A program made the position numbers and the translations under genes. A stretch of 27,630 bases of DNA from a virus, in the IMG/VR virus record IMGVR_UViG_3300045789_000328, positions 1-27,630 of that record; one strand, given 5' to 3'. The notes under the pieces were generated by a model that had not been told where the DNA came from, ran no database searches, and saw nothing but the letters and a program-made list of their open reading frames with translations. Shown here one piece after another: positions 2,309 to 21,950 of the stretch (its first letter is position 1; each line of letters opens with the position of its first letter).

Positions 2309-2674
2309 TTAACTGAATGGGACGTCTAAGACGCCACCAAATGGGTCGTGCGAGTCTGCATTGAACTCAGTTGCTGGAACGTAGGGCTTAACAGAAGGAG
2401 ACTCGACTCCATCTTTATCTACGGACCTATTTCTTCCAACACCATATTTGTAGTCATACCCATACATAGTGCCGTATATCTGTTCTCTTACGCTAGTGTG
2501 GAGCTGGGCTCCTTCTAGTGATCCATACCGCATGTCTTCTTCAAAGAAATAGTGGATTACATCAAGCATCTGAGATGCCTCCATTTCTGGGAGATTTAAT
2601 CCGCTTACTATTGCTTTTCCGTTAACATATGGCCAGAGGTCAACTGCCCAGACTAGGAGGCCTCTGGCTGCGAA
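2309..2674 (-). CDS. Tail assembly chaperone, downstream (-1 frameshift) part
   Basis: This frame is read as the C-terminal extension of the preceding chaperone after a -1 slip at CCCAAAT. It adds 121 residues (beginning FAARGLLVWAVDLWPYVNGK), giving a 228-residue fusion with the first 107 residues of the upstream ORF. An internal ATG at 2584 exists but has no Shine-Dalgarno sequence, and the frame stays open upstream of it back to the slip site, so independent initiation is unlikely. It is the equivalent of the T part of lambda gpG/gpGT, which keeps the tape measure protein soluble and recruits tail tube subunits. The short, acidic C-terminal part shows no recognisable catalytic motif. It ends 17 bases before the tape measure start. 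Confidence 0.85.
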   Translation of the reverse strand, partial: FAARGLLVWAVDLWPYVNGKAIVSGLNLPEMEASQMLDVIHYFFEEDMRYGSLEGAQLHTSVREQIYGTMYGYDYKYGVGRNRSVDKDGVESPSVKPYVPATEFNADSHDPFGGVLDVPFS

Positions 2675-2680
2675 TTTGGG
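2632..2680 (-). promoter_or_regulatory. Programmed -1 ribosomal frameshift signal (tail chaperone)
   Basis: The heptamer CCCAAAT at 2680-2674 is in the correct X XXY YYZ register of the upstream ORF (CGC CCA AAT). Five bases later GCCAGAGG (2668-2661) can pair perfectly with CCTCTGGC (2639-2632) around a 21-base loop. In the -1 frame the nearest upstream stop is the TGA overlapping codons AGT-GAC, so the shift window is narrow and contains the heptamer. The zero-frame stop TAG (2655-2653) lies in the loop. Slippery site, spacer and stem are all seen directly; that it works in vivo is inferred from tail chaperones generally. Confidence 0.88.
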
Positions 2681-2994
2681 CGGTCACTGTATTCTCCAAT
2701 GAGCCACGACACAATTTCGCTAAGGGTCTCTACCTGAACAATTTTGTCCTTGCTTTGTAGCAAAGAATCAAATCTTACAAAACTCTCGTCTGTCAGTGCG
2801 TGCTCAAAGAACTCGCTCATAATAGAAGCAGAGGCGGCGGCATCTCCAGAATTAGCTTTAGAGACGAGGTCTAGTAGAACCTTGCCTTGTAGCGCGGGGA
2901 GACAGTTGAATTCTTCTTCATGTAGCTTGAAGGATAGTGGTGGTTTCTCGCCTGAGGAGTTGCCTCCAAAGTCCTTAAATCTGGTTGTAGTCAT
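2653..2994 (-). CDS. Tail assembly chaperone, upstream part
   Basis: A 113-residue protein, equivalent to lambda gpG, made in excess over the frameshifted fusion. The central segment PLSFKLHEEEFNCLPALQG followed by a helical region (about residues 19-75) is typical of actinophage tail chaperones, and a helical second half follows. AAGGA stands about 9 bases before the ATG at 2994. The ORF ends at TAG 2655-2653, just past the slippery heptamer CCCAAAT, so a minority of ribosomes continue in the -1 frame to position 2309. Position between the neck proteins and the tape measure gene is where this pair always sits. No catalytic motif is expected or seen. Confidence 0.88.
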   Translation of the reverse strand: MTTTRFKDFGGNSSGEKPPLSFKLHEEEFNCLPALQGKVLLDLVSKANSGDAAASASIMSEFFEHALTDESFVRFDSLLQSKDKIVQVETLSEIVSWLIGEYSDRPNSQPEAS

Positions 2995-7619: not shown

Positions 7620-9773
7620 TTAGAGCTCGATTGCAGCTGCAGAAGCGCCACCAGTGGTGTCGCGAAGAGCAGCGGCCACACCGTTAACGTTCACGGTCTG
7701 GGTGATTGCAAGTGACTCGATACCAACCTTTGCGATACCTTCGAAGGTCTCGATGAACATCTTGTAGTCGTTGGTGCCGACTAGTGAAGAGTCGCGGATG
7801 ATACCTAGGTCTAGAGATCCACCGTCTAGGAACAAGAATGTTCCCTCGGCAAACAGGTACCAGGTAAAGGTATCTGGGAACTCAAGTAGAGCAGCGACGC
7901 CCTGAGCACCGAAGTAGGTTAGGTCAGGTGATGCAACTAGTGATACGTTGCTCTGAGCCAAGTAGCCTTCGATTTCAGACTTGCCAACTGCAAGAGTGTT
8001 GTCTCCTGGCATAGCAATTGCTAGGTCAGAAGCCATTGCGTCAAATACCCAGTCAGGAATGATTGCCTGAAGAGTAGTTGTAGGCGCAATACGGTGACGG
8101 CTGCGGTAAGCAACAGCTGCCTTGCGTAGTGATACTAGGAAGTCGCGACCGAAGCCCAAAAGGGTTCCAGAAGTAACTGCAGTTGAAGCTGCAGCAATCT
8201 TTCCTAGTAGGTAGCCTTCAGCTTCGCGTGCGTGCTGTACTAGAGCTAGCTCGTTGTGACGAGCAATCAACTCTGGGTACGCGCGAGTCATTAGGTTACC
8301 AAACTGTAGCTGTAGTGTCACAGCGTCAGTTACAGCAACTTCTTCAGCAGCAGCAGTAACAGTCAAGCTGTTCTTGGTTGCGGATGATGGAGATAGATCC
8401 ACAGCTGCAGTCCATACACCAACAGCGTCGGCATAAGTGTCAGCAGCAAATGACGGAGCGGTTACGAAACGAACGCCACCACGGTCTGCCTGGAACTTAG
8501 GAAGAGCGTCGCGAACTGGACGGTTAGTAGTTGAGCCGATTCCGAAGATATCGTACTTAACTTCTACAGGAGCTGCGTGCCCACCAGAAGCAACAAGAGC
8601 GGTGCTCGCGTTGATCTTTAGGGTGTTAGCTTCTGCATCGGTGCCTAGGAAGCGGTCCTCAGAGTACTGAGTAGAGAACGATGCAACAATGTGCTGCTCT
8701 CCGTCGCCACCGTTGACACGGCGTAGTGAGTGTAGACGCTTCTCCATAAGAGTAGCAACCTCGCTCAGGTCGTTAATGTTGCTACCCGCGCTGTAACCAG
8801 GGATGTCGGCGCCAGCAGTGATTGCCACTACTGGAGCTGTTGCTTCCTGAACTACAGGCTGACGGTCAGCTGGTGCCTCGAAAGGCTGTTCTGCTGCAGC
8901 GGTCACTGCCTGCTCCTTCTGCTCTTCTTCTAAGAGAGCTGTTGATGATTCAATGGTGTTCTCTGAGGAAAGCTCAGATACTTCTTCTACTTCTGATACT
9001 GCTTCTGCAGTCTCTTCGGTTGAAAGCTCTGTTACTTCTTCAGTTTCGGTCGATAGTTCGGATCCATCTACCTGAGTTGTTGATGCTTCTGCGACCTCTA
9101 CGGTCTCAGCGACGACTTCTGCGGAAACTTCCTCGTCAGCTGAAAGCTCAGCTGCTTCGGTTACTTCTGCGGATGCCTCTACGATGGCGTCAGCTTCGAC
9201 TACAGTCTCTTCGACTGCGGCCTCTGCCTCAACTGGAGCTTCGGCAACTGCTACTTCAGCAACTACCTCTACCTCGTCAGCGGAAAACTCTGCCTCTGGA
9301 ACGGAAACTTCTTCAGCGGATGCCTCAGGAGTGGTCTCGGAATCTGCAGATGCACTGATGGCCATCTCGTCTTCCTCTTCCTCTTCTTCAACTTCTTCTG
9401 TTTTCATTTCTGGTTCCTCAGCGGCTGGCATTTCCTCTGGAGTTTCCTCCATTGGCATGTCATCCTCTTTTGGCATTTCGTCTTCGTTCATAGCCATCTC
9501 TTCTCCCACGTCTTCAGCAGCACCCTTAACACGGGCAGTTGCCTCAGCGGCTCTGGTTGCAAGTTCTGCAGCCATAGCTTCGCGGTTACTTAGTTCGCCG
9601 CGAACGATGTCAAGAGAGTCTGCTAGTGACGTCATAGCATCAACTGTCTCAGGAGTTGGGTCTTCACCCTCAACCATTTCAAACTGACTGACAATATCTG
9701 ACTGAAGCTCGCCGAGTTGTTCATCGCCAAGCTCAGTGATAGTGTCTAGCTGAGTCTTAATTTGGTCGTACAC
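7620..9773 (-). CDS. Major capsid protein with fused acidic scaffold domain
   Basis: A 717-residue protein. Residues 1-85 are helical, like a delta/scaffold domain. Residues about 87-300 are extremely rich in Glu, Ala, Val and Ser, including an uninterrupted Glu run near 126-134 and recurring ELS units (ELSADE, ELSTET, ELSTEE, ELSSEN). Residues about 330-717 form the HK97-type coat part, with NINDLSEVATLMEKRLHSL, HAREAEGYLLGKIA and a C-terminal strand-rich domain (WYLFAEGTFLFLDGG, DYKMFIETFEGIAKVG). The scaffold is expected to be removed by the protease encoded just upstream; a likely cut zone is between about 300 and 330. The start is GTG at 9773, chosen because a perfect AGGAGG lies 4 bases before it and no other start is in range. 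The 717-residue length is about twice a plain coat protein. Confidence 0.88.
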   Translation of the reverse strand: MYDQIKTQLDTITELGDEQLGELQSDIVSQFEMVEGEDPTPETVDAMTSLADSLDIVRGELSNREAMAAELATRAAEATARVKGAAEDVGEEMAMNEDEMPKEDDMPMEETPEEMPAAEEPEMKTEEVEEEEEEDEMAISASADSETTPEASAEEVSVPEAEFSADEVEVVAEVAVAEAPVEAEAAVEETVVEADAIVEASAEVTEAAELSADEEVSAEVVAETVEVAEASTTQVDGSELSTETEEVTELSTEETAEAVSEVEEVSELSSENTIESSTALLEEEQKEQAVTAAAEQPFEAPADRQPVVQEATAPVVAITAGADIPGYSAGSNINDLSEVATLMEKRLHSLRRVNGGDGEQHIVASFSTQYSEDRFLGTDAEANTLKINASTALVASGGHAAPVEVKYDIFGIGSTTNRPVRDALPKFQADRGGVRFVTAPSFAADTYADAVGVWTAAVDLSPSSATKNSLTVTAAAEEVAVTDAVTLQLQFGNLMTRAYPELIARHNELALVQHAREAEGYLLGKIAAASTAVTSGTLLGFGRDFLVSLRKAAVAYRSRHRIAPTTTLQAIIPDWVFDAMASDLAIAMPGDNTLAVGKSEIEGYLAQSNVSLVASPDLTYFGAQGVAALLEFPDTFTWYLFAEGTFLFLDGGSLDLGIIRDSSLVGTNDYKMFIETFEGIAKVGIESLAITQTVNVNGVAAALRDTTGGASAAAIEL

Positions 9774-9872
9774 TGTACCTCCTAGGCCAGTTATTCTCGG
9801 ACGCGGATTGCGCCCTATTTTCAGTTAAGGCGAGGGACTCGACGCATAAAACGCGAGGCGCTCCACCTAGGG

Positions 9873-9900
9873 ATAATTTTACCTTACTTTTTAGGTAAGG
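9873..9900 (-). terminator. Small hairpin over the protease stop codon, weak terminator
   Basis: On the minus strand CCTTAC (9900-9895) pairs with GTAAGG (9887-9882) around a 7-base A-rich loop that contains the end of the protease TAA stop. The tail TAAAATTAT is AU-rich but not a clean U-run. It precedes the 117-base leader of the major capsid gene. Termination is possible but not strong. Confidence 0.35.
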
Positions 9901-12900
9901 AGTCGGAGCAGCTTGCTCATCTCAGACTGAACTTCACCCTGAGAGTATAAATCTGCACCCGACATGTAGGACCTCAGACTTTGAGTAGCTTCGTCTGCAT
10001 CCTTTTTACCGATCTTTGCCTCTACGCGGGTGATCATGGAATCAATAAGATCCTTGAGCCCAGAGGGTAAATCGCTAAACTTTAGCTTTTCTGCATCTTG
10101 ACCAAAAGGCAGTGGAAGGTTTGATATAACAGTCCCTAGCTCTTTCGCTGTAAGTCTAACATTCTCTAACGCCTGAGGGTTTAGAGCCTTAGCGTCTAGA
10201 CGGTCAATCATGCCCAGTAGATCCGCACTTGCACCAGCAGAAGCAGCATAGTCTCCGGCAAAGTCAAGCCCTTCGGCTTCTTCTGCCTTCTTTAGAGCCT
10301 TAGATAGGCCAGCTACTCCCAGGTTCTGCTTAAGACGAGCTAGGACTGTACGGTACTTACCCTTAGCATCACGTGGCTGGTTGACACCAGATACGTACTT
10401 AGGTTCACCGTTTTCGTCTAGATCTTCGCCAGAAGGCTGTTGCCCTTTATTAGCCTCTACTTCTTCAGCTGCTTCAATCTCGTCCTCGGTCTGCTGATCA
10501 GCGTCTTCCTTGGCATCTTTTAGCTCTTCGAGATCGGCGTCGGAGATTTCCTTGACCTTTGGAGCAGCAACAACTGCATCTAGTCTTGCTCGCATAGACG
10601 CTACTACTGCCTCCGCCTCGTAAGAGTCGGCACTCATCCACTGTGCGGGGACCAGTTCAAGATGCTTAAGAACTCTAGCCTGCTTAGTGATGTGCTTGCG
10701 GACTGCACGACGTTCTGATGACTTAGCTCTACCATATGCTTGGATCGCGTTTTTTAGGTCATCCACGTTGCGAATAGGGTACGCACCATCTGGCATTGCC
10801 TTACCATCTTTAGCAAGTTCCATGCGCTCATCTTCAGAAATCTTGGCTAGCTCAGCAATTGCTGCGGCAATCAAAGCCCTGCCACGCATATCAGCTGCGC
10901 TGGCTGTGATAGCTTGAAGGTTGGTTGCACGCATTACCTTTTTGGCTGCCCTGACACGTCCCTTGAGATCCGGAGCAGTGTTAGCAAGTTGCCCTAGTAG
11001 CTCTGCCTTGCTAGAGAGGATGTCACAAGACTGGCAGCGCATAGCGGCCATGTAACTTGCACCAGCGGCAACAAGTGCCAACATCTTTCCGCCAGCCACC
11101 ATTGCACGGGCTGTTGGGAATCCTGGAACGTTTACCTGACAAATTGCCACAAGCTCAAGAGAGCCCTCGATTGGACGCCAGTCTCCAGAAGGAGCTGATG
11201 CACGTAGAGCACGGATCTGCATCTCTTCTAGACCAGGTCGCAAGGAGCCCGCACACCAGATACCGTACTCGTCTTCGCCAACGTGAATGTCGGCAACTGC
11301 GGACGCGGTGTCATCGTAGTGCTTAGCAGCAGAAGCTGCGGATGCATTTAGAGGTGCGTGACCTCCAGCAAGAGTTAGCTGACCAACGGGTACGTCAGTA
11401 CCAGCTTCGGTGCGCAGGACTCCAGTGTGGAAGTATGCATACTTGCTACGAGAGCGAGGAGGCTTAGTTGCGCGAGGGAGCCCGATGTGGTTGACGCCCC
11501 ATGCTGCAATGTGGCCGTATACACGACCATCATCGTCAACAGTTAGAGGCGTAGGCCTTTCAAACTTAGGGCGATCAAACCAGTCAGATGGCGGGGTCAT
11601 TGGGATCTCGGCCTTTAGGAAGCCAGATGCCATGATTGGCTCGATATCCGCGAAGTCCTCCATGGACTCTTCGTATATGCCGTCTTCTGGAATCATGGTA
11701 TCCTCTTGGTCCCCTGAGTATTGTATAGAGATAGAGCATTCTTGGAATGCAGGCTTAGCTACAATTGTAGCAGCCATAATGCGAGCCTTGTTTATGGTAA
11801 GTTTATCCTTACCAATACGTCCGTTATCGTCATCTGCCATCTCTCCTTCTGGCTTCTTGTCTTCCATCGCCTCAAACTGGTCGAGATCTACAGAGACGCC
11901 ACGCAGGAAACCATTCTCCACTAAACGCTGTGCTTCAACGCCATAATGTCCAGTGTCAAAGACGCCATAGGCATTACCCATTCCGCCTTCAATTCTTTCG
12001 ACAAAATCTATACGTCCAACTACAACAGAACCGTCATGACCAGAGCCGGTCTTTATCTGCCACATAAGTGGGATCGGCAGCTCTCGGACGGTTATAGCAC
12101 CATCAGCAAACTTACGGCCGTCCCCAGACTCTAGCCCTTCGGGGACTAGCATAGGGATAGTGAACTTAGCGCCCATGTAGCCACTAGCAGAGGCAGTTAG
12201 GGTGACCTTTTCGCGAGCGTCAGCTGCAAGCGCAATCAGACGACTCTTTTCCAACATTGCATCTACCAAGTGCTGCTCCGTTTCGTACATGGTGGAGAAG
12301 TTTTTCTTGCCAGCGTTCTTGCTGTCACCAGTGTAAACACCAGTTACTTCCTTGTGGCGAAGCTGGCAGTACCCCTTTGCGCGTGGGCCCATGTACTTAG
12401 ACAGCTGACGAACACAGCGAGTCCAGTCACCAGGGGTACCCCAGCGGATCTTAGCGGCACCCTTGCCCTTGGTCCAGTAACGACGAAGCGCATCTGCATT
12501 GCCACGGTTGCGGTCTACGCCACCAGCAGCTAGTAGAGGTTCTACGACCTTGGCCCAGAAAATATCGAACTCATAACCTGATGCCTGCAGGGGGGCAGAG
12601 TTTTTATCGGTCTGTTCTAGTACATCGTTTAGGACTTCTTTAGTCTCTAACGGGACTACAGGAGGAGGGGTTGCAGATGTCAGATCAAGCAGTAGCTGAT
12701 CACTTCTCTGCCACTTGCCCTCTTGGCGCTCATAGATGACTGGCTCAGTTGACGTCTTGCTAGCAGGAACAAGTGCAACTACATCCATGACTGCACCCTT
12801 GTCGTCAGGGGAGACAATTGCCATGTATATAGGTGCTACGTCTGAGTCTTTAGGCTCATTGATAGCGTCTGTATCTGCTGCTGCAACTAGGGGGTCTACA

Positions 12901-14285
12901 GAGAAATCTGCGCCGTAGCGCTCTTTCATAAAGCCCTTGTCATACTTGGCTAGCCCGGGGGCTGTCTGCTGCTTGCCTTTAGTGACAGTGGCTATACGCT
13001 TATCCGTGTCACTGTATAACTTGTACTCAGCGCGTTCCTTAGCTACTTGAGCGGGGAAGTCTTTCATCAGTGCGCGAAGGTCTTTGTCCGTAAGTGCTGG
13101 GAGAGTTCCAGGGATCCTGGCCTTAGCAGTTCTAGGAGTACGTGGCTCTCCGAATATGCCACTAAGATCTAGAGGCACGTTGTCAGTAGAAGGCAGTATC
13201 GTTGGCCCATCTACGTCTTCTGGCGACTTTAGGTACTTGGCGTTAACCCCAATCACCTTTCCGCTGTCTAGACGTACATTTACCTTATCGTTGTCGTAGT
13301 CAATAGATTCAATTGTCCCGCTACCGCGCTTAGCATCGCCAGCAACAACAGTCTTACTTCCTACTTTTACAAACTTTCCGCCACCATCACGAGGTTGGTC
13401 TTTTGCCTTCTCAGAGAGGAATCCAGTGTCAAGCTTCCCATCGCCGTCTGCATCAGCAGAAGAGTCAGTTGTACCTGCTGCAGTTATTACACGGTCGATC
13501 ATTGTAAAGTCTTCTTCGGCTAGACCATAGGCCATTAGCTGAGTTTCTTCTGGGTCAATCTCATCGAGGAGGACTGGCTGGAACGGACGCTCTTGCATGA
13601 AAGCTGAGATAATAATTGCGGAAGACGGGTCAATCATGACGTGAGTCTTCTTAACCATGTCGTCTAGTTCGTCTAGTTCTTTGTCGTAGAAGTACACGTC
13701 ACCGTCAACGTTACCTAGGTCGTCCCATGACGAGCCGTCCCATAGGTAGACTTGTCCCTCAATCTCGATTTTATACAGACGATCGATGCCTGAGTTATCT
13801 AGACGTACGCGAGCCATAAATTCTGGCCCAACGTTTGGGTCCAGCTCATGCGCCATCTTAAACGATTCAATGTCCGAAGAGTATGCTGCATATTCGGGAA
13901 GGCTGTAAGTCTCTAGGCTATCTTCGTTCTGATACGCAACGCCGCCAGCAGCAAGGGCTTTCTGGTCTTCACGTTCTACAATTGCAGATGCCCAACGTTG
14001 TGCGGCATCTCCACCCCAGAGAGCCCAGGCAATGCGACCGTTAGATGGGAAGCCGTCTTCGCCTCTTTCGTAGCCCTTTGCCTTTTTATCTACTTCGTGA
14101 CGAGGGAAGTACTTGGCAATGTGACGAACCTTTTTAATGCCAACCTGACCACCCTTGGCTAGAGTACGTGCATTGCTCAGTCCGACAGGTGTGCCGCCAC
14201 GGTTAAATTCTTTGCGCCATGCAAGAGCCTTCTTGGCTTCTTTTTGGGCGCCACCAGGGATAGTGTACATACGATCGCTGCTCAT
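9891..14285 (-). CDS. Capsid maturation protease, 1464-residue multidomain polyprotein
   Basis: Several modules are visible. Residues 20-105: a helical basic module with RHIAKYFPRHEVDKKAKGYE and GRIAWALWGGDAAQRWA, common in actinophage proteases. Residues 299-355: RDGGGKFVKVG plus a KOW-like beta segment. Residues 572-662: a basic Trp-rich module (ALRRYWTKGKGAAKIRWG, KYMGPRAKGYCQLRHKE). Residues 690-860: a U35/HK97-type prohead protease, with probable catalytic His750 (GSGHDGS) and Ser798 (RGVSVD). Residues 910-1060: a module with DDDGRVYGHIAAWG, VGEDEYGIW and VNVPGFPTAR. Residues 1165-1215: a DUF6582-like YPIRNVDDLKNAI...RAVRKHI segment. The C-terminus is helical. It cleaves scaffold and itself inside the procapsid. 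The length is several times that of a plain prohead protease. The ATG directly follows the previous TAA, with GGAG ahead. Confidence 0.82.
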   Translation of the reverse strand: MSSDRMYTIPGGAQKEAKKALAWRKEFNRGGTPVGLSNARTLAKGGQVGIKKVRHIAKYFPRHEVDKKAKGYERGEDGFPSNGRIAWALWGGDAAQRWASAIVEREDQKALAAGGVAYQNEDSLETYSLPEYAAYSSDIESFKMAHELDPNVGPEFMARVRLDNSGIDRLYKIEIEGQVYLWDGSSWDDLGNVDGDVYFYDKELDELDDMVKKTHVMIDPSSAIIISAFMQERPFQPVLLDEIDPEETQLMAYGLAEEDFTMIDRVITAAGTTDSSADADGDGKLDTGFLSEKAKDQPRDGGGKFVKVGSKTVVAGDAKRGSGTIESIDYDNDKVNVRLDSGKVIGVNAKYLKSPEDVDGPTILPSTDNVPLDLSGIFGEPRTPRTAKARIPGTLPALTDKDLRALMKDFPAQVAKERAEYKLYSDTDKRIATVTKGKQQTAPGLAKYDKGFMKERYGADFSVDPLVAAADTDAINEPKDSDVAPIYMAIVSPDDKGAVMDVVALVPASKTSTEPVIYERQEGKWQRSDQLLLDLTSATPPPVVPLETKEVLNDVLEQTDKNSAPLQASGYEFDIFWAKVVEPLLAAGGVDRNRGNADALRRYWTKGKGAAKIRWGTPGDWTRCVRQLSKYMGPRAKGYCQLRHKEVTGVYTGDSKNAGKKNFSTMYETEQHLVDAMLEKSRLIALAADAREKVTLTASASGYMGAKFTIPMLVPEGLESGDGRKFADGAITVRELPIPLMWQIKTGSGHDGSVVVGRIDFVERIEGGMGNAYGVFDTGHYGVEAQRLVENGFLRGVSVDLDQFEAMEDKKPEGEMADDDNGRIGKDKLTINKARIMAATIVAKPAFQECSISIQYSGDQEDTMIPEDGIYEESMEDFADIEPIMASGFLKAEIPMTPPSDWFDRPKFERPTPLTVDDDGRVYGHIAAWGVNHIGLPRATKPPRSRSKYAYFHTGVLRTEAGTDVPVGQLTLAGGHAPLNASAASAAKHYDDTASAVADIHVGEDEYGIWCAGSLRPGLEEMQIRALRASAPSGDWRPIEGSLELVAICQVNVPGFPTARAMVAGGKMLALVAAGASYMAAMRCQSCDILSSKAELLGQLANTAPDLKGRVRAAKKVMRATNLQAITASAADMRGRALIAAAIAELAKISEDERMELAKDGKAMPDGAYPIRNVDDLKNAIQAYGRAKSSERRAVRKHITKQARVLKHLELVPAQWMSADSYEAEAVVASMRARLDAVVAAPKVKEISDADLEELKDAKEDADQQTEDEIEAAEEVEANKGQQPSGEDLDENGEPKYVSGVNQPRDAKGKYRTVLARLKQNLGVAGLSKALKKAEEAEGLDFAGDYAASAGASADLLGMIDRLDAKALNPQALENVRLTAKELGTVISNLPLPFGQDAEKLKFSDLPSGLKDLIDSMITRVEAKIGKKDADEATQSLRSYMSGADLYSQGEVQSEMSKLLRLLT

Positions 14286-14687
14286 TTATTCTCCAGGGAT
14301 CTTGTCGGCTTCTTCAGCACTGGTGTATTCTCCCGAGTTAACTAGTTTGCAGGTCTCCTCTAGGTCAGACCTACTGAGGTCTTCGCCTTTGGCCCACGAC
14401 TGAACTAATTCTATTTCCCAATCAAGCTCATCATCGGGAGAGATAGATACGCCACTTCCAGGAGTGTCATCTTCACTATCCCAGTCGTATGACCAGATCT
14501 CATAGTCTGCCGAGTAGTACTCTTGTAAGCTGTCGCGAGTACCCATCTCCCAGTCTTCACCCTTAGGCCTGACGGTGATACCGAAAATTGTGTACATAGA
14601 AACATATTCAACAGCTTGCGAGCCCTTGTTCACATAGAAGTAAATGGTAGGCTCCGCGGAAACGTCATACTCTTGCTCTTTAGCCAT
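14286..14687 (-). CDS. Small acidic protein, unknown function
   Basis: A 133-residue strongly acidic protein with no match I recognise. The N-terminal half is strand-rich and aromatic (PTIYFYVNKGSQAVEYVSMY, YEIWSYDWDSED); the second half is helical and Glu/Asp-rich. It starts at ATG 14687 with only a weak GAGAT-type ribosome site, and its TAA abuts the ATG of the protease polyprotein. It lies between the zincin/GNAT fusion and the protease. Its charge and size would fit an inhibitor, a chaperone or a DNA-mimic, but nothing in the sequence decides between them. Confidence 0.7.
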   Translation of the reverse strand: MAKEQEYDVSAEPTIYFYVNKGSQAVEYVSMYTIFGITVRPKGEDWEMGTRDSLQEYYSADYEIWSYDWDSEDDTPGSGVSISPDDELDWEIELVQSWAKGEDLSRSDLEETCKLVNSGEYTSAEEADKIPGE

Positions 14688-14752
14688 GTTAATCTGATCT
14701 CAATCTCTTAATTAGCTAGTTGGATCCAGCTATAAGTTTATCATACTAGTGT

Positions 14753-15106
14753 TTATAATGACTCGGCTACTTTTTTAAAGTAGTACTCATTATACCTGGG
14801 AAACGTAGCACATAACTTAGACAGCTGCTCGAGTGACATATCTCTTACATCAAGCGTGGAATTGTCGGGACCGTCTAAGGTGTCAATGCTGATGCTTATC
14901 AGGTAAAAGCTGTTGTCATAGTAGGTGTCTGCAGTGTCTCTAGGCGCGACTTCCGCTGATTCACGGTACTTTGCTAGCAGATCAGAGTCCAGCTTGTAGA
15001 AGTCGACTTGATCTTCTTCTGACCAACCGTCTATATCTAGTTCATCAATCTTTCGTGAATTGACAAAATCCTCGAATAGCTTTGCGTATTCTTGTCTATA
15101 GTCCAT
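14753..15106 (-). CDS. Small acidic protein coupled to the zincin gene, unknown function
   Basis: A 117-residue acidic, Tyr-rich protein with alternating helix-like (YRQEYAKLFEDFVNSRKIDE, EDQVDFYKLDSDLLAKYRE) and strand-like (NSFYLISISIDTL) stretches. Its ATG shares one base with the stop of the upstream metalloprotease ORF (TAATG at 15108-15104). There is no strong ribosome site of its own, so its translation is probably coupled to that gene. I recognise no family. The coupling suggests a partner, regulator or immunity role towards the upstream product, which is inference only. Confidence 0.7.
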   Translation of the reverse strand: MDYRQEYAKLFEDFVNSRKIDELDIDGWSEEDQVDFYKLDSDLLAKYRESAEVAPRDTADTYYDNSFYLISISIDTLDGPDNSTLDVRDMSLEQLSKLCATFPRYNEYYFKKVAESL

Positions 15107-17244
15107 TAGAGTTTCTTAATCCCATCCCAAGATCCATTGCTCATCATTATAATTCTACCAACTGACGATGTAGTCTTATCCTTAGTCCGCCTGTTTGCCT
15201 GACCAACTCTAGCAATCATATTAGCAGTTAATTCGCTACCTCGTGCATCTGCAATGAATTGCAGCTCGTTAATTAGATTATTGTCTATGTCCCAGCCGAA
15301 CCTGTCTGCCTGCTGAAGGATGCTCATAAGAGTGACCTCACTTGGCCATTGATCCCTACCGCTGTTGCTGTTTTGGTAGCTGTATAGGCTAGCAGTGTTT
15401 TTCAGGTCTGTTGGGAAGAGATCCTTGATCTCCTCCGGAGTCTTACCTGCATATTTGGCCTTATTGTTGCCTAGCTCCTTCATAATTGGTAACCACATAG
15501 CAGCAACATTACGTTGCCTCTTGTCCCTGTCTGAAGTTTTTTCGAACTCAAAGCCATGCATTGCCCACATGTATGGGCCATTACTTAGAGCAGCATTTAC
15601 GCGAACCTCGCTAACACCTAAGTCTCTGTACAAACCGTCTAGCCCGCGGGTAATCCTGCCACCAAGACCAGTGCCCTGGACGCTTTCGTCCAACGCGAAG
15701 TAGTCGTGTTTCACAGTAATTTTACCGTCTACATCTATGGTTAGAACCCTGTTTATGTTCCCAACAGGTGTACCGGCGTCATAGAACTTTCCATTGACCG
15801 AGACAGTAGCACTCACCCCACGCCCCTGAGAGATCCTCTGTATGGCTGCAGCTTCATTCGCGAGTGTCACATCTTGTGTAGACATCGTAAAGGTAAGACC
15901 ACTGCCTTGTAGTTGAGAGTTTATGTAGTCTACGTAGATATCTTTAAAGTTGTCCCCATAGAAGTAGTTTGGAGGCAGCTGATCTCTAAGATCATTTACG
16001 CCAACAACATCCTTCAAGTAGTCCAAGAATTCTTGACTGGCTTGTTCTGTAGAAATGTACTTAGCAAGAGACTCTGCAAAGTGCTCTCTAGCATCATTAT
16101 CTCCGTACCTAGAGACACTTTCTGCTTTAACCGAGTTATATTTCTCGCTCTTAGGGTTCTCAGAGCCAGGTGCACCCCAGTCAAGACCCATTGAGTGATG
16201 ATACGTGTGAGCAATCTCGTGGAACAATGTCTCTGCTGCGGCAGATCCCTCGCCGAACTCAGGGGTAAGTTTAGAATTAAGTTCGTGGTTAATCAGAACT
16301 AGAGATCCAAACCCCGAGATGCTTCTAGCAATACCGGCCCCCAGTTCCCTGCTGGTAGCTGAGTTTAGAACAAAGTTAACTCCCTGAGTCCTATTTAGGT
16401 CGTCCCTTGGAGTAAGTGCAATGGCGTTATATGCGGAAGAGAAATCTTCTTGGGTGGCCAGAATTTTTACGGCTACACTATTACGATCAACATCACCCGG
16501 CATACTTGTCATGACAGAGAATTGATCTAACTTAGCTAGACCAACCTTATACTCATCCATGTCTACTGCCCAACTTGTGGAAGGCAGGACGTCATCGCCA
16601 GCAGTTGCATCTATGTTGAAAGGCACAGAGACGCTGCCAACTACAGACGTACCCATTACTTTAGGTGTATAAGCTACGCCACGCTTAAGTCTTTCGGCAA
16701 CTAGTTGGTCTGGAGTTTTAGTTACGTCATCATTTCTAAGGAAGTCAATAAAGAATCCAATATCTTTTACCTGCTTTGAGGTTAGGAAAAGTCCATCTGT
16801 AGACGATACATATGCTCCAAGAGCTCTTTTTATGTCGGTGTTACTTACGAGGTCTATTAGGCCTCGAACGCTTATTGGGTCTGGGGCAGCGCCTAGCGTT
16901 AAGTCGTCCAACTCGATTTCGTAACCCAAGCCAAGGGCTGTGTTGTGGTTGACTTTAATAGAGCTACTGGCATACTTGAGTTTATTTTGAAGCAGTTTGG
17001 CTCTTGCTATGGCTAACTGCATGTTAGCTTCATAGGTGTCTCCACCGTAGTTTTCTAAGTTCTTAAATTCCGGTAAGAGCCTAACCAGCTCAGAGTCTAA
17101 GAGCTCAGGGATTGGATTACTAGGCGTCCTAGGTCCTTCGCTAACATCGTCCCACAGGTCGTCTGGCAGATCAAACCCTGGATCAGAATCTGGATCGATC
17201 TCGACTTCTCTAGATAGAGCCAGCCCCTGTAGAGGGGCTATGCT
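15106..17244 (-). CDS. Zincin metalloprotease plus GNAT-like domain, C-terminal part of a frameshift fusion
   Basis: The 638-residue ORF from ATG 17022 extends in the same frame, without a stop, for another 74 codons upstream to the slippery A-run at 17250-17244. It is best read as the -1 continuation of the 897-residue ORF (712 residues added, fusion 1608 aa). In the 638-residue numbering, HEIAHTYHH at 268-276 is a HEXXH zinc site, and NDAREHFAES (309-318) supplies a candidate third ligand Glu (E313 or E317). Residues about 425-495 look like a GNAT acetyltransferase: strand TVKHDYFALD, acetyl-CoA loop QGTGLGG (449-455), helix, strand VRVNAAL, and YMWAMHGFEF. The ATG at 17022 lacks a well-spaced ribosome site (GGAG is about 17 bases away). 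Position among capsid genes suggests a virion-internal protein. The substrate is unknown. Confidence 0.8.
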   Translation of the reverse strand, partial: SIAPLQGLALSREVEIDPDSDPGFDLPDDLWDDVSEGPRTPSNPIPELLDSELVRLLPEFKNLENYGGDTYEANMQLAIARAKLLQNKLKYASSSIKVNHNTALGLGYEIELDDLTLGAAPDPISVRGLIDLVSNTDIKRALGAYVSSTDGLFLTSKQVKDIGFFIDFLRNDDVTKTPDQLVAERLKRGVAYTPKVMGTSVVGSVSVPFNIDATAGDDVLPSTSWAVDMDEYKVGLAKLDQFSVMTSMPGDVDRNSVAVKILATQEDFSSAYNAIALTPRDDLNRTQGVNFVLNSATSRELGAGIARSISGFGSLVLINHELNSKLTPEFGEGSAAAETLFHEIAHTYHHSMGLDWGAPGSENPKSEKYNSVKAESVSRYGDNDAREHFAESLAKYISTEQASQEFLDYLKDVVGVNDLRDQLPPNYFYGDNFKDIYVDYINSQLQGSGLTFTMSTQDVTLANEAAAIQRISQGRGVSATVSVNGKFYDAGTPVGNINRVLTIDVDGKITVKHDYFALDESVQGTGLGGRITRGLDGLYRDLGVSEVRVNAALSNGPYMWAMHGFEFEKTSDRDKRQRNVAAMWLPIMKELGNNKAKYAGKTPEEIKDLFPTDLKNTASLYSYQNSNSGRDQWPSEVTLMSILQQADRFGWDIDNNLINELQFIADARGSELTANMIARVGQANRRTKDKTTSSVGRIIMMSNGSWDGIKKL

Positions 17245-17250
17245 TTTTTT
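17222..17250 (-). promoter_or_regulatory. Programmed -1 frameshift signal joining the 897- and 638-residue ORFs
   Basis: On the minus strand the codons CCA AAA AAA GCA TAG end the upstream ORF. The seven A residues (17250-17244) give A AAA AAA in frame, ideal for tandem tRNA-Lys slippage. Four bases later AGCCCCT (17239-17233) pairs with AGGGGCT (17228-17222) around a CTAC loop, and the zero-frame stop is at the foot of the stem. After a -1 slip the next codons are AGC ATA GCC, and the frame is open into the zincin ORF. All elements are seen directly; the frequency of shifting is unknown. Confidence 0.85.
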
Positions 17251-19931
17251 GGTACTACCTCGGTGCCCAGAGTGTACGCAACGGTTCCGTCGGTTCCGTC
17301 TGGCTTTGTAAACACAAAGGCAATACCCGCAGCGCCATCTCGACTTACGACGTCTTTAGTAGATTTAATTATTCCTAGTGGTCTGCCGTCTCGGCTATAC
17401 AGCATTTCGCCTTCAATGAAGTCGTCGACTAGCCTAGGCATGGCTGCTGGCGTACTGAGCACAGTTCCTACTCCAACTGGAGCATCAGCCTGAGGGCCTT
17501 CTTGCTCAGGAGTACTTATCAGCCCGAGCTCCCTGCGCTTTTGACGGAGAGCTTCTCCATATAGGTTTGCTGTATACGGCGTCAACCTAGAGTTTTGATC
17601 TTTTAGAATCCTAAGTTTGATTGCATTTATCTTGCGCTTTTTGCCATCGGCATCAGTAATAATTACATAGTCACCGTAGTTGTAAGAGGTGGTGTCATTA
17701 GGTCTGGCATTAAGGTTCTCCACCATAGAGTTGACTTTAACGGTTGACTTTTCACCTACGTTGTTGGTGTACTCTACGGTCATGCCGTTTTCTAGGACCC
17801 TGCTTCGATCTTTAGATGCGTACCTTAGGGATCTAACCTGAGGGTCAGAAGCCTGATAGATTCCTCTCAACCTGTTAGAAGCTGAAGTTACTATTCCATT
17901 AAATGACCTAGTCTCTTTTGAGCTTCTTTCAGGAAACTGCCTGGCAAACTCATCGCGTAGTGCTCTACGAGCTAGCGCGTGGGAAGTCTTGTCTAGCGGC
18001 ATTCTTCCAAATACTCCGTATAGTACGTAGTACAAGTTGTCAGCGGCCTGCTTCTTCTTTACTCCATTAGCTATATCTGATCTATAATCTGTAAATGCAT
18101 CCCATAGGCTAGGGATCTCGCTGTTTTTTACGGTACCGTTTTTTGCCAAAACTGCCGAACGACCGAGAGCAAGTCGGATAGCGTTGTCCTTGATCTCTTC
18201 CATCTTCTTGCGATCGCCGGTTCCTGACCTAAACCACTTAGATCTCTTGAAGAGGCTGTCGGTTGGCTTAAACTTTGAACTACCAAACTTCATGTTTGCC
18301 CAGTCGTTGCCCTGGTTGTCTACTCTACCTAAGAGACGATCGAGGAGCTCTTGAGGGCTATTATCTTTTCTAAACAAGGAGGCAATAGAGTGGCGGTCAT
18401 CCTTATGCATGAACTCTTGCCACTCGCCAGTCTTAGGGTCAGTAAATCGCATAGAGTAAATAATTGCTCTTTTACCAGAGTTGTTTGCGCGTAGCTCAAA
18501 AATCTTTCCGTCTTTGTCCTCTTGACGGTGAAGAATCAACGTTCCATCTGGAGTGAACTTTGCGTCAGGGTATACCTTGGCTAAGGCAGCCATCATTGCA
18601 AATGGGTCCTCAGCATTTGCTAATTCGTTGTTCTCGTCTAGATACATAGCAGTAGTGCCATCGAAGTCTGCCAATGGCGTCAACTCCATAGCTCTGGCAG
18701 CATCTACCTCTTCGTTAGACAGGACTGGTAGATCGAAATTGGTTCCATCATCTAGACGGTCTTTTGGAGGGTAGTTTGGAGGGGTGAGTTGAGATCGAAC
18801 CTCGGTGAAGTCTCCAGAGTCAAGTTCTCCTGAGTCTGGCCTTGGAGGGACTGTGTCCTCAGGGGCATCTACTTCAGGGGTTACAGCCTCGGGAGCATCT
18901 GCAGGCGGAGCCGATGGTGCGTCGTCACGTGTAGTGTTAGGGGTCCTGGCCCTTGGAGGCTTAGGCTTGCTAACTGTTCCCTTTTTACCCGATGCTACGT
19001 TAAGTTTTTGGTTGTTTGGTACGCTAATAGTTTCGCTCGTGCCATCTGATGACTGCAGGGTGACCATAGCTTGCTCATCAAAGTTAATATTTGTGACTGT
19101 CCGCTCATCACCATTGTCATCTACAACAACATCGCCTACTTCTAGGTCAAATGGGAGAGTCCTCTTTACGGATGGTCCGTCGCTCTCTCTGTGTAGCGCG
19201 AGGGTAGCCTCTGTTATCTTTCTTAATGTGTCAAGCCGGGCGCTAGTGTTTTCACCATATTTCCTGTCGGGCCCAGATGCGTCAGGTTTAGGTAGTGAGT
19301 CCACCTCGACGTCTGTGTCTCCTGGTAGTTCAATGCCAGCGTCCTTAAGCATCTGCTTAACTGCATCAGGATCCTCTAGCTCTGCACCTACTGGAAGAGT
19401 TGCAATAGGGGAGTCGGTGCGGGCAGCATCCTGAGCCTGACGCTCGTCGTCAGTTAGCTCACCTTGTGCTAGACGTAGATCGTTATCGGTGATATCGGCA
19501 ACTTCAAGCTTACTAAGCTCGGGAAGCTTAGAATCTTCTAGAGTCTTTACAGGCTTACCAAAAATATCCTTGCGATCTTGCTGACCGCCTTCTATGCCCT
19601 TGAGGGCTTCATCCGGGAGAATTGCCTGGAACTGCTTAAGGTTACTTGACTCGATACTGGTGTAGACACCAGATGGAATGCCGTCAGCATCCTGGCCTTG
19701 AACCAAGATGCGGGCTTTACCAATTTTACCTGCTGGTCCTACATAGACTCCACGTACGGTAGCTACTACTAGTCGACCATCTTGACTGATCCTGACCCTA
19801 AACAATACATCCGCGCCCATTTCGATCCACTGACCGCCGTCGTCGCGGGGTTGGATCATCCAGAAGCCCTTATTGGCACCTAGGCCTACAGCAATGATGG
19901 CGGTTAGGTCTAGATCAGAGTTTTCGAGCAT
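17238..19931 (-). CDS. 897-residue capsid-region polyprotein, unknown function, slippery 3' end
   Basis: A large, mostly hydrophilic protein. Residues 25-105: IQPRDDGGQWIEMGADVLFR followed by strands (VRGVYVGPAGKIGKARILVQ, PSGVYTSI), a small beta-barrel module seen in actinophage capsid-region proteins. Residues about 125-225 are acidic and helical. Residues about 255-310 are a KOW-like strand block (LEVGDVVVDDNGDERTVTNI). Residues about 315-400 are Pro/Ala/Asp-rich linker. Residues about 415-720 form the largest folded part, rich in Lys/Arg with FRKDNSPQELLDRLLGRV and KKKQAADNLYYVLYGVFGRM. Two more KOW-like strand blocks follow, near 720-790 and 850-895. It starts at ATG 19931 behind AAGAGG. 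It ends in VPKKA at an A-run, where a -1 shift adds the zincin/GNAT part. It is probably a virion or procapsid component. I see no catalytic motif in this part. Confidence 0.8.
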   Translation of the reverse strand: MLENSDLDLTAIIAVGLGANKGFWMIQPRDDGGQWIEMGADVLFRVRISQDGRLVVATVRGVYVGPAGKIGKARILVQGQDADGIPSGVYTSIESSNLKQFQAILPDEALKGIEGGQQDRKDIFGKPVKTLEDSKLPELSKLEVADITDNDLRLAQGELTDDERQAQDAARTDSPIATLPVGAELEDPDAVKQMLKDAGIELPGDTDVEVDSLPKPDASGPDRKYGENTSARLDTLRKITEATLALHRESDGPSVKRTLPFDLEVGDVVVDDNGDERTVTNINFDEQAMVTLQSSDGTSETISVPNNQKLNVASGKKGTVSKPKPPRARTPNTTRDDAPSAPPADAPEAVTPEVDAPEDTVPPRPDSGELDSGDFTEVRSQLTPPNYPPKDRLDDGTNFDLPVLSNEEVDAARAMELTPLADFDGTTAMYLDENNELANAEDPFAMMAALAKVYPDAKFTPDGTLILHRQEDKDGKIFELRANNSGKRAIIYSMRFTDPKTGEWQEFMHKDDRHSIASLFRKDNSPQELLDRLLGRVDNQGNDWANMKFGSSKFKPTDSLFKRSKWFRSGTGDRKKMEEIKDNAIRLALGRSAVLAKNGTVKNSEIPSLWDAFTDYRSDIANGVKKKQAADNLYYVLYGVFGRMPLDKTSHALARRALRDEFARQFPERSSKETRSFNGIVTSASNRLRGIYQASDPQVRSLRYASKDRSRVLENGMTVEYTNNVGEKSTVKVNSMVENLNARPNDTTSYNYGDYVIITDADGKKRKINAIKLRILKDQNSRLTPYTANLYGEALRQKRRELGLISTPEQEGPQADAPVGVGTVLSTPAAMPRLVDDFIEGEMLYSRDGRPLGIIKSTKDVVSRDGAAGIAFVFTKPDGTDGTVAYTLGTEVVPKKA

Positions 19932-21494: not shown

Positions 21495-21950
21495 TTAGCG
21501 AACTCCTATGAATGCTTTGAGTTGCCACATCCACTTAGCGTACATATCACTGCGAGCAGCTAAGAAGTCCAGTAACCCCTGAAGGTCGTACTTCTCTGCA
21601 AGGTGAAAAGCTGCGATGTGGCATGCGTAGAGCTGCTCTATGATGTCAAGTGCTGAGTAAAGCATCCCCTGAGAGTCACTACCGTCTAGGCGCCTCTCGG
21701 AAATGCCGGACAGCTCAACGTAGTCTGACAGCATGTAGGGTGCTGGGAACCCGATCTTAAGAATGTTCTCTGCTAGTGGGTCGATCGAACTGTCGAGGTC
21801 TAGATACAGCTTGCCAAAGAACTTATGGAGTTGCCCAAAATCCGAGCCCATGACATTCCAGTGATATCCGTGGAGTATGAACTTAGCCATAACTACATCC
21901 GATAGAACTTCTGCAAGCTTCTCTGCAAGTTCAGTTTTTTCTTGTCTCAT
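21495..21950 (-). CDS. Dps-like ferritin family protein
   Basis: At 151 residues it is close to standard Dps length. Dps proteins form 12-subunit shells that bind DNA, oxidise Fe(II) with peroxide and store iron. The Dps signature is clear: YHWNV (29-33), then LHKFFGKLY (41-49), and IDPLAENILKIG (56-67). Against E. coli Dps, the ferroxidase residues His51, His63, Asp78 and Glu82 correspond to H30, H42, D57 and E61 at exactly matching spacing, but Asp67 is replaced by Gly46. The C-terminal helix (DMYAKWMWQLKAFI) also matches. There is no long basic DNA-binding tail. It lies between portal and the Cys-cluster protein with 1- and 0-base gaps, so it is expressed with the virion genes and could be packaged or protect DNA late in infection. 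Confidence 0.87.
   Translation of the reverse strand: MRQEKTELAEKLAEVLSDVVMAKFILHGYHWNVMGSDFGQLHKFFGKLYLDLDSSIDPLAENILKIGFPAPYMLSDYVELSGISERRLDGSDSQGMLYSALDIIEQLYACHIAAFHLAEKYDLQGLLDFLAARSDMYAKWMWQLKAFIGVR

Follow-up and report, generated by a model that had tools for sequence, protein, structure and literature searches.

A conserved candidate -1 frameshift site joining a head-region protein to enzyme modules in uncultured phages

The head-gene locus and the shift site

The window, that is, the whole stretch of DNA analysed, is a 27.6 kb IMG/VR record. Its minus strand carries a head and tail module. The genes follow the order terminase, portal, a Dps-like gene, a 501-aa protein, ORF1 (897 aa), an ORF in the -1 frame, two small genes, a 1464-aa protein and the major capsid protein. 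The 1464-aa neighbour contains a capsid maturation protease core. ORF1 and the -1 ORF have the portal on one side and this protease on the other. ORF1 is not the major capsid protein, which is encoded separately at 7620-9773 (phrog_777 match). The phage family with the split is related to phages of actinobacteria. Directly after the portal gene, the Dps/ferritin-like gene (21495-21950, minus strand) encodes 151 aa, and most relatives covering that region present an ORF of 151-153 aa at the same place.

ORF1 (17238..19931, minus strand) is the zero-frame short form, and its homologues are present in about 50 IMG/VR loci. Its 3' end reads GTA CCA AAA AAA GCA TAG. A slippery heptamer, A AAA AAA, lies here in the -1 register (17244..17250, minus strand), and the zero-frame TAG stop (17238..17240) is 3 nt past it. 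After a 4-nt spacer comes a putative stimulatory hairpin (17221..17240, minus strand), which in RNA reads UAGCCCCU-CUAC-AGGGGCUG. This G+C-rich stem (AGCCCCT-CTAC-AGGGGCT at 17239-17222) has 7 bp, or 8 with a terminal U-G pair. Folding gives -13.3 kcal/mol over 31 nt (z = -2.0). The pattern of heptamer end, stop and hairpin occurs once in the window and in none of 100 shuffles.

The -1 frame is open from a stop ending at 17356 down to a stop at 15108-15106. The extension (15106..17244, minus strand) consists of Ser (AGC, the first post-shift codon) and then 711 codons. The predicted long form would have 896+1+711 = 1608 aa, with the junction -VPKK-SIAPLQG-, and the short form 897 aa. The first in-frame ATG of the -1 frame is at 17022-17020, 74 codons past the slip. 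Its best anti-SD pairing is -2.7 kcal/mol, and most gene starts in the window reach -4 to -9.6. An earlier note on this DNA had described the same heptamer, a 4-base spacer and a 7-bp GC-rich stem. It had also described a -1 frame open for 74 codons and in phase with ORF2, an ATG without a good ribosome site, and products of 897 and 1608 residues. The site agrees exactly with the minus strand, and the other points are borne out as well, the two lengths as predictions.

The window also has a shift site of the tail-chaperone type. The tail assembly chaperone pair occupies 2309-2994, and the chaperone gene at 2653-2994 (minus strand) has a C CCA AAT slippery heptamer at 2674-2680, kept in relatives. 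The ORF1 site is far from this pair. ORF1 and the -1 ORF are not a small pair just upstream of the tape measure gene, the arrangement that marks the tail assembly chaperones G/GT.

Relatives with split and fused genes

Single-protein scans of IMG/VR with each window ORF gave no match. Relatives were reached via the neighbouring 1464-aa protease protein, which led to 17 close contigs (L009-L025). Pattern scans contributed L031, L032, L038 and L047, and the alignment of ORF1 homologues contributed 49 loci, many of them new. We scored each locus for whether the ORF1 homologue is split, for the frame of the second part and for the sequence at the ORF1 end. One further pattern match, L035, was dismissed as chance. 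The cultured-phage collection has no split member, and its only matches are N-terminal, to Microbacterium giants and DSL-LC01. Likewise, the scan of genome contigs found no relative. All split members are uncultured phages. In three contigs (L021, L022 and L023, at about 9767-14726), two overlapping ORFs take the place of an intact homologue of the 1464-aa protease protein.

IMG/VR holds 26 non-duplicate split relatives, from many samples. ORF2 is in the -1 frame in 26/26. Each of them also has a heptamer in register, A_AAA_AAA or C_CCA_AAA, whose last base is 0 or 3 nt from the stop, with a hairpin after it. The alignment of related phages that the earlier note had proposed as a check finds heptamer, hairpin and open -1 frame all kept. 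No in-frame stop separates the ORFs at any of these 26 junctions. Ribosome sites were scored in eight split relatives. They share no conserved internal start, and the in-frame starts pair poorly with the anti-SD compared with most genes of the window.

The A AAA AAA heptamer is present in L048, L049, L051, L054, L056, L066, L080 and L083. The C CCA AAA heptamer is present in 11 loci of type A and 7 of type B. Most type A loci read CCC AAA A TAG ATA GGGCTG...CAGCCC, and type B loci read CCC AAA A GCN TAG CCCCC nnnnn GGGGG CT. Several loci (L014, L019, L038, L047, L062, L080 and L083) have a -1 stop that precedes the zero-frame stop by just 10-16 nt, which leaves the heptamer as the only place for the shift. 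The -1 extensions of split members measure 262-1002 codons. The upstream proteins of type B (566-1939 aa) are without BLAST similarity to ORF1. The same locus thus bears this arrangement on either of two proteins that show no detectable relationship.

Folded singly, the hairpin lies 3-6 nt past the heptamer in the window and most relatives, and the others have computed G+C-rich stems. The z-scores go from about -1.6 to -4.5 across members. In type A, the base of the hairpin (GGGCTG/CAGCCC) is invariant in nine aligned sequences. Its upper stem changes in sequence and keeps its pairing, with 3 covarying pairs. Between the window and type B, the loop-closing pair is compensated (CCCCT/AGGGG vs CCCCC/GGGGG). 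This covariation is modest because the outer stems hardly vary.

To estimate chance, we scanned 480 ORFs of at least 100 aa in the loci of the phage group. The scan asked for a heptamer in register within the final six codons, together with 40 or more codons of -1 extension. The heptamer occurs in 37 of the 480 ORFs. After the extension filter, only this junction, the tail-chaperone site and one isolated window ORF (TTTAAAC) are left. The last one looks like chance. The known tail-chaperone site (CCCAAAT), recovered by the same scan, is a built-in positive control. Codon choice was also considered. The base before CCA AAA is C in 18/18 CCCAAAA loci, and the amino acid there varies (V, S, G, L, N, A). 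AAA, used at the shift sites, is in most cases the less frequent of the two Lys codons. Combined naively, the codon probabilities come to about 10^-28 over the CCCAAAA loci and 10^-10.5 over the A7 loci, and phylogeny inflates both values.

Six non-duplicate relatives (L010, L012, L055, L058, L063 and L067) have both parts fused in one frame. They all (6/6) keep R-G-P-(K/N) at the same alignment position, with the codons CCT AAG/AAA/AAT, which are not slippery. Judging from this alignment, the slippery site is missing exactly where fusion needs no shift. The fused relatives form one clade (support 100/100), and the tree places A7 twice and CCCAAAA once. Past the junction, the fused relatives read SDPDFDLDSI in frame, which matches SDPGFDLPDDL in the -1 frame of the window, ahead of any start codon. 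That a whole clade is fused in frame suggests a functional fusion protein, and also that not every phage needs a fixed short:long ratio.

Protein parts and appended modules

The N-terminal domain of ORF1, of about 140 aa (19497..19916, minus strand), recurs in giant proteins of Microbacterium phages (1654-2235 aa), which are encoded at the same locus by a single ORF. The ORF1 model is a chain of small beta-barrels, and the last barrel (residues 829-894; 17250..17447, minus strand) ends at the shift. By predicted structure and structural comparison, this barrel is SH3/KOW-like and closest to EF-P/eIF5A domain I, with a Z of about 8 that makes the likeness only suggestive. The viral structure search gave no convincing match to the whole protein.

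The model of the window -1 module is poor (mean pLDDT 41). A zincin metallopeptidase domain with a PPEP/ATLF-type fold is predicted at 15994..16674 (minus strand). Its HEIAH motif (16207-16221) corresponds to -1 residues 341-345. The best fold match has Z 10.9 over 175 residues on this low-confidence model, and the zincin profile match has E 0.0046. The model supports that the module carries a zincin, with the HExxH placed in a zincin fold. A GNAT-like acetyltransferase region (15532..15804, minus strand) presents the motif VQGTGLGGRIT. Its QGTGLG is conserved, and the GNAT profile matches are sub-threshold (E about 0.16-0.84). The zincin/GNAT enzyme of the earlier note keeps its zincin half, through HEIAH and the fold match. 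For its GNAT half, the evidence is the motif QGTGLGG plus profile matches below threshold.

Most type A modules have an HETGH or HESGH zincin followed by an ART-like region, judged as ART by eye. Type B modules contain the ArdcN + MPTase-PolyVal unit twice (E about 1e-48). Zincin, GNAT, ART and ArdC modules are all listed among the domains of polyvalent proteins (PMC5512222). Two or more effector-type domains per polypeptide are present in type B and, more weakly, in the window (zincin and GNAT-like); this holds only if the fusion is made.

Two loci, L054 and L066, have a -1 extension of just 262 codons. It ends before the zincin present in the homologous L056, an apparent loss of the enzyme part.

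A linker motif, G[LF]DQ, is found in type B (L016, L023, L031, L032, L038 and L015). The upstream protein has 3-9 copies. The -1 part has 1-2 more, including a copy about 10 residues past the shift. Among the other ORFs checked, it is present only in the L015 ORF just upstream. The motif may mark domain borders or cleavage sites. The repeats were considered as sites of the maturation protease, but the other head ORFs have no site that matches them.

Proposed mechanism and competing explanations

The best overall explanation, and one we regard as probable, is a programmed -1 frameshift yielding a minority enzyme-tailed head-region protein. Ribosomes on CCA AAA AAA would stall at the hairpin, which starts about 4 nt ahead. 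Some of them would slip, with the two Lys tRNAs pairing again one base back, and would read past the TAG into the -1 frame. Most of the product would then be the 897-aa form, and a smaller share the 1608-aa form that ends in the zincin and GNAT-like module. The zero-frame part may dock the protein in the procapsid, since the gene lies between the portal and the maturation protease. Shifting would set a low dose, that is, few copies per virion of an exchangeable polyvalent-type enzyme (zincin/GNAT, zincin/ART or ArdC pair). The enzyme cargo could be injected for early action on the host, or it could act in assembly.

We consider it an even question whether the long form is a packaged effector; its virion location comes from gene position only. 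A broader reading, a little short of even, is a Gag-Pol-like strategy. The -1 cassette is conserved, variable in sequence and placed on two upstream proteins without detectable BLAST similarity at the same head locus. It may load limited amounts of exchangeable counter-defence or host-modifying enzymes per capsid for injection. Another use of a real frameshift, regulatory or structural and not enzyme delivery to the host, is possible but less likely than not. It could give a capsid-surface or tail-vertex extension of set stoichiometry, or a product processed by the maturation protease. The coat-protein frameshifts of T3, A2 and Listeria phages do give structural extensions (PMC5009743), and the modelled ORF1 resembles a string of small beta-barrels. 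However, the appended modules are of catalytic types with intact HExxH, including the ArdcN + MPTase-PolyVal pairs, and effectors fit them better than scaffolding.

As for the mechanism itself, we hold it very likely, from sequence comparison, that a programmed -1 ribosomal frameshift joins the two parts. The -1 text ahead of the first in-frame ATG (17023..17244, minus strand) is informative here. Between the window and L051, the 72 codons before the ATG have pS = 0.84 and pN = 0.27. Other pairs show dN/dS values mostly of 0.0-0.35 in the pre-start -1 segment, with few higher values on short segments. By these ratios, the pre-start text is under protein-level selection. The in-frame ATG is missing from the three closest split relatives, which have Leu there. 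The first start codons in relatives range from codon 8 to about codon 140. At the level of sequence, the comparisons show selection preserving the site, the hairpin, the frame and the -1 coding text in phages that are distant from one another.

Two separate genes would be a very unlikely reading of these data. ORF2 would then start at an internal ATG, GTG or TTG (74 codons in) or by termination-reinitiation at the TAG. Mechanical ORF finders do call two ORFs, and the -1 codon overlapping the stop is ATA in the window and type A, a conceivable weak start. Nevertheless, type B and L048 have CTA, TTA or GTA at this position. The window ATG, with its weak SD pairing, is unconserved, and the first starts are scattered. 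In addition, the pre-start text is constrained as protein and read in frame in six relatives, and the heptamers would be left unexplained.

Transcriptional slippage on A7, making a fusion mRNA in place of ribosomal slippage, seems just as improbable. Seven A's could slip at a low rate, but 18 split relatives use CCCAAAA, with a longest run of four, and the hairpin and stop spacing suit ribosomal shifting. Finally, an error of sequencing or assembly, or a frameshift mutation fixed in one true ORF (A7 for A8), is hardly credible: the contig is metagenomic, the split lies inside a homopolymer and single-ORF relatives exist, but the same split recurs in 26 non-duplicate contigs from many samples, with two heptamers of which only one is a homopolymer, always -1, beside a stop and with a hairpin after it, and the in-frame relatives lack the site.

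The programmed -1 frameshift has several known counterparts. In the major coat proteins of T3/T7 (gp10B), Lactobacillus phage A2 and Listeria A118/A500, a -1 slip near the end of a structural gene likewise yields a short and a long form that share their N-terminus, and there too some relatives are in frame and others shifted. Their extension is short and often Ig-like (PMC5009743). The one studied here spans 262-1002 codons, brings enzyme domains and belongs to a protein whose gene lies between those of portal and protease. The tail assembly chaperones G/GT (Xu, Hendrix and Duda 2004, as cited in PMC7302621) share the -1 mechanism and CCCAAA-type heptamers (C CCA AAT in the window chaperone). 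They differ in being small, tail-specific, non-enzymatic and outside the virion. Retroviral and totiviral Gag-Pol joins a shell-targeting part to a minority enzyme extension by a -1 frameshift and is packaged in a set ratio. In contrast, that extension is a polymerase, in unrelated viruses; the enzyme here is no polymerase, and we infer its packaging. The parallel with tail chaperones drawn in the earlier note is apt for the mechanism; the nearest parallels are rather the frameshift-extended coat proteins and Gag-Pol.

Polyvalent and MuF/Alt-type effectors are multidomain, lie beside portal or head genes and carry zincin, GNAT, ART and ArdC modules, as here (Iyer et al. 2017, PMC5512222). They are thought to be packaged and injected (PMC5512222). 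Polyvalent proteins are single ORFs, whereas here the ORFs are split, and frameshifting has 0 occurrences in that paper (PMC5512222). Microbacterium phages have fused VIP2-MuF genes and virion proteins of >4,400 aa (PMC7302621). PRFect flagged VIP2-ART/MuF-like gene pairs of SEA phages as possible frameshifts (PMC10885494). As here, toxin and head genes are separated, fused elsewhere and possibly joined by a frameshift; unlike here, the remark is one line among 'false positives', without site, conservation or family (PMC10885494). Within open-access literature that lacks most subscription papers, we found no description of this family or of a conserved frameshift joining polyvalent-type parts. 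The earlier note had held such a frameshift to be undescribed for this kind of protein. For the family this stands within the literature covered, but the PRFect remark on VIP2-ART/MuF pairs qualifies it. Frameshifting and polyvalent proteins were each already known, and what appears new is the conserved frameshift linking them.

If true, this would be a third conserved frameshifting class in tailed phages, beside tail chaperones and coat-protein extensions. It would also be a general answer for limiting the large effector proteins loaded per head. The family offers a natural experiment, with a one-frame clade that has no slippery codons at the same site. Such proteins are split by gene callers. 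The enzyme halves of many 'polyvalent proteins' from environmental phages have therefore probably been annotated in error, as independent genes with incorrect starts.

A look-alike cassette is present on an unrelated head gene in L033 (IMGVR_UViG_2881703511_000002), which we placed outside the family as a coat-protein frameshift. At L033:958-1020, a coat-protein-like ORF ends C CCA AAA GCC TAG CCCCGACTGTCGGGGCTG and has an 18-codon -1 extension.
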